64,000 bases of DNA from an uncultured Planctomycetaceae bacterium (GTDB taxonomy: Bacteria > Planctomycetota > Planctomycetia > Planctomycetales > Planctomycetaceae), in assembly GCA_937916515.1 (NCBI GenBank), contig CALFSX010000153.1, positions 1 to 64,000 of the forward strand, given 5' to 3'. Below the pieces are notes generated by a model. It was not told where the DNA came from. It did no database searches and worked only from the letters and a program-made list of their open reading frames with translations. Of this stretch, positions 31,448 to 34,158 are shown in pieces; position 1 is the first letter of the stretch; each line of letters opens with the position of its first letter. The position numbers and the translations under genes are program-made.

Positions 31448-31490
31448 AAAAAAGGCCGATCGGAATCCAAAGAATCCGTCGGCCTTTTTC
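31448..31490 (-). terminator. Intrinsic terminator closing the candidate small RNA
   Basis: On the minus strand GAAAAAGGCCGA and TCGGCCTTTTTTC form an A/T-flanked stem with an inner CGGA/TCCG helix and a run of six T. It is nearly symmetric and could act in both directions. Confidence 0.88.
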
Positions 31491-31665
31491 AGTAGTGGAA
31501 GTATTCAGGTTTCTCAGGCCTTCAACTTCGACACGCTCTCAATTTCTGTAGTTCGTTTCTCAGGCGAACCACAATCTCTCTCTATTTGCTGCACATTTGG
31601 CAGCGACTGCTTTCTCAGGGCAGTCAGGGTTCGGGATCTCACTCCGAACCAGTCTCTCTCTGAGA
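31449..31665 (-). ncRNA. Candidate small RNA with repeated CCTGAGAAA loops
   Basis: Reading the minus strand, a -35 TTGTAA (31695-31700) and -10 TATTAT (31670-31675) precede a roughly 210-nt stretch with no coding frame that ends in a strong terminator. Inside are four hairpins. One (31605-31625) has stem GACTGC/GCAGTC and loop CCTGAGAAA. Another (31547-31573) has a 9-bp stem TGTGGTTCG/CGAACTACA and the same 9-nt loop. A third (31628-31650) has stem GGTTCGG/CCGAACC and loop AGTGAGATC, and a fourth (31588-31604) has stem GCTGC/GCAGC. CCTGAGAAA occurs a third time at 31510-31518. The linkers are GAGAGAGA-rich. The 5' end can read TTTCTCAG, the exact complement of the loop CTGAGAAA. I match it to no known RNA family. 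The -35/-10 spacing of 19 is slightly long. Confidence 0.62.
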
Positions 31666-31669
31666 AAAG

Positions 31670-31700
31670 ATAATAAGCAATCACGATGCCAAACTTACAA
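31670..31700 (-). promoter_or_regulatory. Candidate promoter of the small RNA
   Basis: On the minus strand TTGTAA and TATTAT are separated by 19 nt, a few bases before the first hairpin of the candidate RNA. The rest of the spacer up to tadA (31701-31959) shows no other gene. Confidence 0.45.
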
Positions 31701-31959
31701 CGCTGCCTGGCAAAAACAGGCCAACAGCACGTCATCGACCAACGTAAAACATTATCACAAAACCACTTACAACAAGTTCACAATTCCGTCACTGGTCCCA
31801 GGACTCATCATCACGGCGACCAGGTCAGGTCGAATTTGCAATTTGTACAACTGATTTAGATTGCAGTTCTTACAAATCTTGGCGTTTTGTGCATTGGAAT
31901 TGTCGACCTTTCAAAAGTAGCTTGTCGCCCTCACGCGGCTTAAAGCTATTGGAACATTC

Positions 31960-32451: not shown

Positions 32452-32907
32452 ATGCGGACAACAAACTTGAGGGAATTCCTTCAATTCGTCCGGTGCAAAT
32501 AAGTTCTGAAAACGCGTTCGCGCAGATTCTGCTGCTTCGTGATCGACGTCACACGACTTACGTCGATTCGTTCGTGTTCGACAAAAAAGAATGTGACTCA
32601 GAACTTTAAACGGTATTGACCCATTTTCGGGCTTGGGTTAAATCTCTTCCCGGCGTCACATCCGACACGGCAGTTTCAGCCAGTCAGCGACGTTACCTGT
32701 CACGTTTAGTCACTTCAACACATTCGTGTTTTACTGCGGGCTTGCTCAAAGCTCGCTCCACTCCAATTCACCCCACCATTCGCAATTCAGCGGTGCGTTC
32801 AAGGACGAACCATCGACGAGCTGCGTCTTCTCAACTCTTCTGTCTTGCGAATTTCACGAACCCGCAATTCGTCGCGATGCGGAAAGTTCCTCTCAGGGAA
32901 GAAACTT
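32452..32907. other. Spacer before the YTV-like protein gene
   Basis: About 450 bases with no supported gene. A plus-strand frame from 32616 ends inside the next gene in another frame and has no recognisable sequence. The stretch near 32880-32905 (CGGAAAGTTCC, then CAGGGAAGAAAC) supplies the ribosome site for 32908. Confidence 0.4.
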
Positions 32908-34158
32908 ATGTTCTACCGAAAATTGTTTCTGACTGCTGCAATTTCAGCAGTGCTTACAAATCAATCCGCTGCGAACGCTCAGCTCTTCAACCGGGGCTGC
33001 AACTCCTGTTCGGCCGCGTCCGCACCAGTGATGCAGGCTGCCAGTTGCACGCCGATTCAGCCGGTGCAGACATCGTGCTATCAGACGGTACCCGTTACGA
33101 CGTACCAGCGAGAACAGCAAAAAGTTCGAGTTCCCTACTATCAAACAGCCATGGAAACTCAAACCGTAACTGTGATGGAACCCGTCACTCGACAGGTCTC
33201 ACGTGAAATCCCAACTGTCAGCTACAAGACGGTTGTTGAAAACCGAGTCGTTAACCGCGACATGGGACGCTGGCAAACAAACTACACTCCTGTCGCCAAG
33301 TGCGATCCATGTCAGGTTGATCCTCGACCAGGCATGATTGGCTGGCTAAACCGTACGGGCTATTCATTCCGATCAGCATTCGTGCCGAACTATCGCACAT
33401 CTCGACAATACGTGCCCAACATGGTCACCTGCAATGTGCCAACCACTCGGCAAGTCGCCGTTCATGGTACTCAAAAAGTTGTTGAGAACATTACCGAAAT
33501 GGTACCTCGCCAAAAGACGGTTCAGGTTGAAGTCAGCAAGCTGGCCTGGCGTGAAGAAACACAAACAGTCATGAAGCCAACCACGGCTTACCGAACTGTT
33601 CCAATCGGCAGCTCACTGGCCTACGGCTACGGTGGCAGCAGCCAGGTAGCGTATGGCTATGGTGGCAGCTCAATGGCTTATGGTTATGGCGGCTACGGAT
33701 ATCCGGCAACGGCCTACATCGTGGACGAAAGCAACACCAGTCGATCGGCCCTGCTGCCGGAAGAAGATCCCAACTTCAAAGATACAGACACAACTCGTTC
33801 AGCACGCAACACGTTTGACAAAGATCTTCCAGACGATCCAAACGCCCGAACGTTTCAACGCACGGAGTCGGATAAACCGGGCTTCCAACGCAGCAGCTTC
33901 AACCGCACACTGCCACCAGCGGCTAATGACAGCTTGAAGCAGTCGCCAAACACTTTTAAATCGGATGAAGAATTGAGTCCGTTTCCACCAGCAACTCAGC
34001 GTGATTCCCGAGCCTACCAGAACAACTACACTCAGGCCACGCTTCGCCCGGCATCTCGTGGCTGGAAAAGTAGCAGTCGCTCAACTTCAGACAACAGCAG
34101 CACTGCATCCGACGATCGAATCGCGATCCCTGGTCTCTCAATGACTGATCGCAACTAG
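32908..34158 (+). CDS. YTV-like repetitive surface protein
   Basis: A 416-residue exported protein. The signal peptide is MFYRKLFLTAAISAVLTNQS with cleavage near ANA|QLF. The first half holds degenerate repeats of about 12-20 residues built on VPVTTYQREQQKVRVPYYQT, METQTVTVMEPVTRQVS and YKTVVENRVVNRD, the style of the YTV domain of planctomycete cell-wall proteins. There are also paired cysteines (CNSCSAAS, CDPCQVD). A Gly/Tyr-rich block (SLAYGYGGSS repeated three times) follows, then a long polar tail likely to be disordered. The cysteines and Tyr-rich repeats suit a cross-linked envelope protein. ATG 32908 follows GGGAAGAAAC. The exact role is unknown. Confidence 0.8.
   Translation: MFYRKLFLTAAISAVLTNQSAANAQLFNRGCNSCSAASAPVMQAASCTPIQPVQTSCYQTVPVTTYQREQQKVRVPYYQTAMETQTVTVMEPVTRQVSREIPTVSYKTVVENRVVNRDMGRWQTNYTPVAKCDPCQVDPRPGMIGWLNRTGYSFRSAFVPNYRTSRQYVPNMVTCNVPTTRQVAVHGTQKVVENITEMVPRQKTVQVEVSKLAWREETQTVMKPTTAYRTVPIGSSLAYGYGGSSQVAYGYGGSSMAYGYGGYGYPATAYIVDESNTSRSALLPEEDPNFKDTDTTRSARNTFDKDLPDDPNARTFQRTESDKPGFQRSSFNRTLPPAANDSLKQSPNTFKSDEELSPFPPATQRDSRAYQNNYTQATLRPASRGWKSSSRSTSDNSSTASDDRIAIPGLSMTDRN

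Follow-up and report, generated by a model that had tools for sequence, protein, structure and literature searches.

What does the minus strand between tadA and the CPBP gene encode? The window analyzed here (the whole stretch of 64,000 nt) contains at this place a cluster of hairpins in which one nonamer recurs on unrelated stems, and the initial annotation proposed it as a candidate small RNA with a protein-binding or titrating role. Is it a gene, how far is it conserved, and what might its repeated loops bind?

A predicted small RNA gene and its promoter

The minus strand carries the nonamer CCTGAGAAA at 31611-31619, 31556-31564 and 31510-31518, in agreement with the threefold occurrence initially annotated, and at two of these sites the nonamer forms, as also annotated, the entire 9-nt loop on a stem of at least five Watson-Crick pairs. 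The third copy is the loop of a weaker, interrupted hairpin. Also recovered were the further loop AGTGAGATC (31635-31643) on a 7-bp stem and the purine-rich GAGAGAGA linkers. In the 64-kb window we counted five copies of CCTGAGAAA against 0.66 expected, a number reached in none of 100 shuffles. Of 85 minus-strand hairpins in the window that combine a 9-nt loop with a stem of five or more Watson-Crick pairs, just three have a NNTGAGANN loop, and all three belong to the small RNA element. The region folds at -99.8 kcal/mol compared with -72.8 kcal/mol for shuffled sequence (z -5.8), and the fold contains the four hairpins and the strong terminator that had been proposed for this strand. The terminator appears as a strong 3' hairpin with a T-run, yet is absent from the list of a simple terminator scan. 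Since the opposite strand also folds strongly (z -5.1), the assignment of the strand rests on the promoter, enhancer and terminator together. Placing the start 12 nt beyond the -12 element's GC and the end within the T-run gives the following parts of the locus, from upstream to downstream.

31861-31875, minus strand: distal enhancer palindrome TTGTAAGAACTGCAA, present in 29 of 29 homologues
31836-31850, minus strand: proximal enhancer palindrome TTGTACAAATTGCAA, spaced from the distal one by 25 bp
31677-31692, minus strand: sigma54 -24/-12 promoter TTGGCATCGTGATTGC, GG-N10-GC, in 29 of 29 homologues
31448-31665, minus strand: predicted small RNA of about 218 nt, from sequence evidence
31652-31662, minus strand: linker 1, CAGAGAGAGAC, at the RNA 5' end, retained by most homologues
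31628-31650, minus strand: hairpin 1, stem GGTTCGG/CCGAACC, loop AGTGAGATC
31605-31625, minus strand: hairpin 2, stem GACTGC/GCAGTC, loop CCTGAGAAA
31588-31604, minus strand: extra hairpin without the motif, stem GCTGC/GCAGC, loop CAAATGT
31575-31583, minus strand: linker 2, AGAGAGAGA
31546-31574, minus strand: hairpin 3, stem TTGTGGTTCG/CGAACTACAG, loop CCTGAGAAA, loop core in 29 of 29 homologues
31534-31542, minus strand: linker 3, TTGAGAGCG (GAGAGAGA in relatives)
31498-31529, minus strand: hairpin 4, interrupted stem, loop CCTGAGAAA (31510-31518)
31448-31489, minus strand: intrinsic terminator hairpin, AAAAAGGCCGACGGATTC...GATCGGCCTTTTTT, seen in the fold

Two parts of the initial annotation are not supported. 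It had placed a promoter-like pair ahead of the RNA; a scan of the small RNA region returned no sigma70-like promoter, and the promoter is instead of the sigma54 type with a distant enhancer. It had also suggested an internal switch, in which the 5' end of the RNA would pair with the loop. Part of the proposed complement TTTCTCAG falls ahead of the predicted start, and among the 29 homologues only that of the window's own genome has such a 5' end, with TCTCAG close to the start.

At the position equivalent to the promoter, GG-N10-GC is found in all 29 homologues, with flanking consensus bases that deviate in some. Each of the 29 also has at least two palindromes approximately 130-205 bp upstream of the promoter, matching TTGYAAN3TTRCAA with at most two mismatches (typical site TTGTAAN3TTRCAA), spaced as a rule by 25 bp and in some homologues by 26 or 35 bp; farther upstream of the tandem enhancer no palindromes were seen in these homologues. 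A search of 170 whole genomes showed the tandem pattern to be nearly exclusive to the small RNA; the matches in G032, G008, G161, G163, G175, G181 and G035 are not followed by an RNA of this kind. From these sites, a dedicated enhancer served by an activator with nearly a single target is likely. Comparison of 94 sigma54-activator matches across six genomes did not single out a candidate for that activator, because the several present in all RNA-bearing genomes are also present in genomes that lack the RNA. By sequence, the locus thus combines what is expected of a sigma54-dependent small RNA gene: the promoter, a distal enhancer, a predicted non-coding transcript and a terminator.

Conservation of the loop core on changing stems

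A DNA search of 58 relatives located the element in six further genomes of the genus and in one of another genus. Seven complete copies align well, and their consensus consists of invariant loop cores on variable stems, with 13 pairs altered on both sides. The covariation score of this alignment was reached by none of 500 shuffles and was lost when the pairing partners were slid. The covariance-model search in other planctomycetes that had been proposed as a check was run on 170 genomes of the family and yielded approximately 31 convincing copies, distributed over six genera (g1, g6, g48, g69, g72 and g64), and a search at the level of the order gave the same result as that of the family. Outside the planctomycete family, a phylum-wide draw of 392 genomes contained no full-length match. 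The full model was also unmatched in G001, which belongs to the window's genus, and in three g72 genomes, where assembly gaps are possible. The weak hits of the model in other genera (L079-L082, L084 and L085) proved for the most part to be terminators or the ends of coding regions; L086 is an isolated hairpin. Neither the promoter nor the enhancer was found at any of them. Those RNA-carrying records that bear names are metagenome assemblies of Planctomycetaceae, Planctomycetales or Planctomycetota bacterium.

Our detailed reading covered 29 homologues. In their MAFFT alignment, changes on both sides were seen at 9 of the 12 pairs predicted for the two central hairpins. The loop core TGAGA, counted in the model-fitted alignment with agreement from the MAFFT alignment, is present in 29/29 copies of hairpin 3 on 11 different stem pairs and in 27/29 copies of hairpin 2 on 14. 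Loss of the loop motif's conservation on changing stems had been named at the outset as grounds for abandoning the candidate; the loop is in fact maintained while the stems change in a compensatory manner. The GAGAGAGA linkers are retained among the homologues. Other parts are exchangeable: five homologues have an unrelated terminator instead, and the position of the extra hairpin holds a different UGAGA hairpin in some relatives or is empty.

The motif composition of the 29 RNAs is consistent with this pattern. Relative to dinucleotide shuffles, TGAGA is found 136 times against 36 expected, AGAGAGA 75 against 10 (7-fold enriched) and GAGA 303 against 152. GGA is depleted, with 70 occurrences against 143 expected, and is unpaired only 7 times across all 29 RNAs and in none of the window's loops. 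Each RNA has on average 2.8 UGAGA hairpins and between one and five GAGA linkers, with only one strong UGAGA hairpin in some homologues. In a divergent homologue (L056; G115:C151:78500-79400, minus strand), the promoter and enhancer are retained and the one clear loop is CCGGAGAAA, which holds a GGA as in CsrA sites.

In the 13 loci that were compared, the RNA is divergent to tadA in 10 and no other gene is constantly attached; the minus-strand element is therefore predicted to be a stand-alone small RNA gene. The plus strand of the window encodes, at 32845-34158, a 437-aa repetitive protein that has no match in Pfam; in 9 of the 13 loci a homologue is found close to the RNA. Viral contigs contained distant tadA relatives only. 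Rfam searches at gathering and permissive thresholds gave no family at gathering score for the small RNA, with only the terminator resembling CsrC (E 4.7). The element is predicted to encode a conserved small RNA that has not been described before.

The same hairpin on other RNAs

We also searched with a model of the single hairpin. Since its hairpins had been picked on TGAGA, all figures for conservation given above were taken from column-based analyses. In the window's genus, this model returned only the small RNA and lone, mostly intragenic matches. Twenty matches outside the small RNA were fetched from this genus and taken as chance, because they are lone, lie mostly in long open frames and have neither promoter nor tandem enhancer. 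With no other hairpin-bearing RNA found in this genus, targets there would need a plainer site. A dispersed repeat in genome G001 (L095, L096, L098 and L104) has a hairpin resembling GCCGG/CCGGC with the loop CCTGAGAAA, followed by ATGnnCACGAGCCnGAATGGTTCACGAGA; the identity of the loop is possibly due to chance.

Within genus g72, whose assemblies are of mixed quality, the single-hairpin model located two further conserved places. The first is a second small RNA (L083:540-860, L262-L269, L272, L276 and L277). All 11 copies that extend far enough have a sigma54-like GG-N10-GC at one fixed position, preceded by a conserved TTRACAAAATCGTTAA-like sequence of its own and without the tandem enhancer. 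The RNA has GAGAGAG linkers, a hairpin GGCGG/CCGCC with the loop CCTGAGAAA and two more hairpins, and in L272 and L083 there is an additional inserted hairpin with the same loop. The other place is the end of a gene for a small protein with a helix-turn-helix (PF12728) and a receiver (PF00072) domain (L232-L241, L247, L248, L255 and L270, near position 1505). Here the stop codon TGA lies inside the loop, the stem is formed by the coding part together with the 3' UTR, and a terminator follows shortly after. The sole variable pair in the coding part of the stem is C-G, U-A or A-U, and it pairs in 11 out of 11 distinct sequences. The presence of one loop element on three unrelated RNAs of g72 points to a single shared trans-acting binder, and we regard it as the strongest evidence for such a binder. 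As to the role first suggested for the RNA, the recurrence of the loop on the two other g72 RNAs favors a bound partner.

A putative decoy and its relation to known systems

What might this RNA do? We give a somewhat better than even chance to its being a sigma54-dependent, stand-alone small RNA that works by titration, as a decoy for a trans-acting regulator. An enhancer-binding activator at the two palindromes, together with sigma54 polymerase, would switch the RNA on under some signal. The RNA would then display several copies of a hairpin with a loop of about 9 nt, NNUGAGANN, along with GAGAGAGA linkers predicted to be single-stranded. These copies may capture an RNA-binding protein that normally binds such elements in mRNAs, and the captured protein would be released from its mRNA targets. 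In g72, the second RNA could be a sister sponge, and the helix-turn-helix/receiver mRNA, through its stop-codon hairpin, could be a target. We favor the decoy because the RNA extends over six genera with covarying stems and a fixed loop core, because the promoter and tandem enhancer accompany every homologue read and the enhancer is almost exclusive to it, and because UGAGA hairpins and GAGA linkers are multiple per RNA, with TGAGA and AGAGAGA in excess. It is further suggested by the recurrence of the loop on two unrelated g72 RNAs, one with an extra hairpin in two genomes, and, by analogy, by the RsmZ-like layout (PMC12047976) and the precedent of CrcZ as a sponge under sigma54 (PMC5501646, PMC6296734). 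Against a decoy, the single strong UGAGA hairpin of some homologues is few for a sponge, and the window's own genus yielded no other RNA bearing the hairpin.

The partner protein could be a CsrA paralogue with altered recognition, although this is a guess and we consider it rather improbable. The 29 genomes tested for CsrA have 2-16 copies each, and in a sample of the paralogues the core is retained while the copies differ, including in the C-terminal strand and helix. One paralogue is encoded on the window's contig beyond the window (G000:C153:78404-78556, minus strand), approximately 47 kb from the RNA. More broadly, we tentatively envisage, at well below even chance, a global post-transcriptional system parallel to Csr/Rsm, in which a UGAGA-loop/GAGAGA-linker code would be presented by sigma54-driven sponges under separate enhancers, and an RNA-binding protein, possibly a re-specified CsrA paralogue, would also bind the stop-codon hairpin of an mRNA. 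With the stop codon inside the loop of the bound mRNA hairpin, the protein might exert its effect when translation terminates or at the 3' end of the message.

The main rival to the decoy is base-pairing: the UGAGA loops and GAGAGA linkers might anneal to mRNAs at UCUCA or CU-rich stretches, in the manner of the sigma54-driven Qrr RNAs. Base-pairing RNAs under sigma54 are known, and the loops are predicted to be exposed and are fixed in sequence like a seed. However, the usual helper, Hfq, is absent from 29/29 of the relatives' genomes tested, the genome shows no excess of the 9-mer CCTGAGAAA (91 sites, counting both orientations, against approximately 86 scaled from the window shuffles), and the motif is repeated across loops and linkers. 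Moreover, the g72 mRNA hairpin carries the motif in the same sense rather than as the complement, on a covarying stem. We consider antisense action unlikely. Far less probable is a classical CsrA sponge with a drifted GGA code that binds ordinary CsrA. The abundance of CsrA, the layout and the GGA in the loop of the divergent G115 copy would fit such a sponge, but GGA is depleted and rarely unpaired in these RNAs, and a simple pattern search found no GacA-type box upstream.

We give an equally low standing to hairpins that serve as sites for an RNase, processing or stability factor on an RNA whose product works in another way, such as that of a riboregulator or ribozyme-like fold. A stability or processing role is plausible for the g72 hairpin, which covers a stop codon just before a terminator, but repeated loops with linkers and a dedicated enhancer suit titration better, and we saw no sign of a catalytic core. 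The idea that the hairpins between tadA and the CPBP gene arose by chance and have no function retains next to no probability; the comparative data already contradict it, with the conservation, covariation, promoter, enhancer and terminator retained in six genera, even beside different neighbors.

We found no characterized planctomycete small RNA regulator in the literature, in which our coverage of subscription journals was thin. A conserved loop-code RNA in relatives that lack Hfq and are rich in CsrA provides a concrete handle on planctomycete regulation: the RNA could be used as bait for the RNA-binding protein, the enhancer for the activator and its signal, and the loop for the regulated mRNAs. 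Should the partner be a CsrA paralogue, it would reveal how the CsrA family shifts its recognition code.

The putative decoy resembles several known systems in part. RsmZ has eight GGA motifs divided between loops and single strands (PMC12047976), and like RsmZ and CsrB the RNA described here is a multi-hairpin non-coding RNA with one motif in loops and linkers and a terminator at its end; some genomes have a second RNA with the shared motif, and the CsrA family is present and here expanded. It differs in having UGAGA in a 9-nt loop with GGA depleted, and in its sigma54 promoter with a distal enhancer, and a simple pattern search upstream of the 29 homologues found no GacA/UvrY-type box. CrcZ is an Hfq sponge (PMC5501646) whose sigma54 promoter is accompanied by CbrB sites (PMC6296734). 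Our RNA shares with CrcZ/CrcY the stand-alone gene, the sigma54 promoter, the upstream activator sites and a repeated motif proposed to titrate an RNA-binding protein, but there is no Hfq, the A-rich AANAANAA occurs in 2 of 29 RNAs, and the enhancer consists of true palindromes 25 bp apart, whereas the CbrB subsites are non-palindromic. Like the Qrr genes with LuxO, the small RNA gene is predicted to depend on sigma54 and is preceded by tandem palindromic activator sites, and the half-site TTGYA resembles the LuxO half-site TTGCA. In contrast to Qrr, the site here is TTGTAAN3TTRCAA (15 bp), the loops are repeated, and Hfq and an Rfam match are lacking; exact LuxO sites (TTGCAN3TGCAA) are found in none of the 29 homologues. 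The GlmY/GlmZ system with RapZ comprises sigma54-controlled small RNAs of which one is a decoy for a protein (PMC7073468), and we found no resemblance to GlmY/GlmZ in sequence, structure or Rfam. The RNA is thus set apart from Csr/Rsm by the GGA motif, from CrcZ by the absence of Hfq and of A-rich repeats, and from Qrr by a different enhancer and, again, the absence of Hfq. Judged from sequence, it is probably sponge-like in its working yet outside the Csr/Rsm, CrcZ and Qrr families, with a motif that is new.
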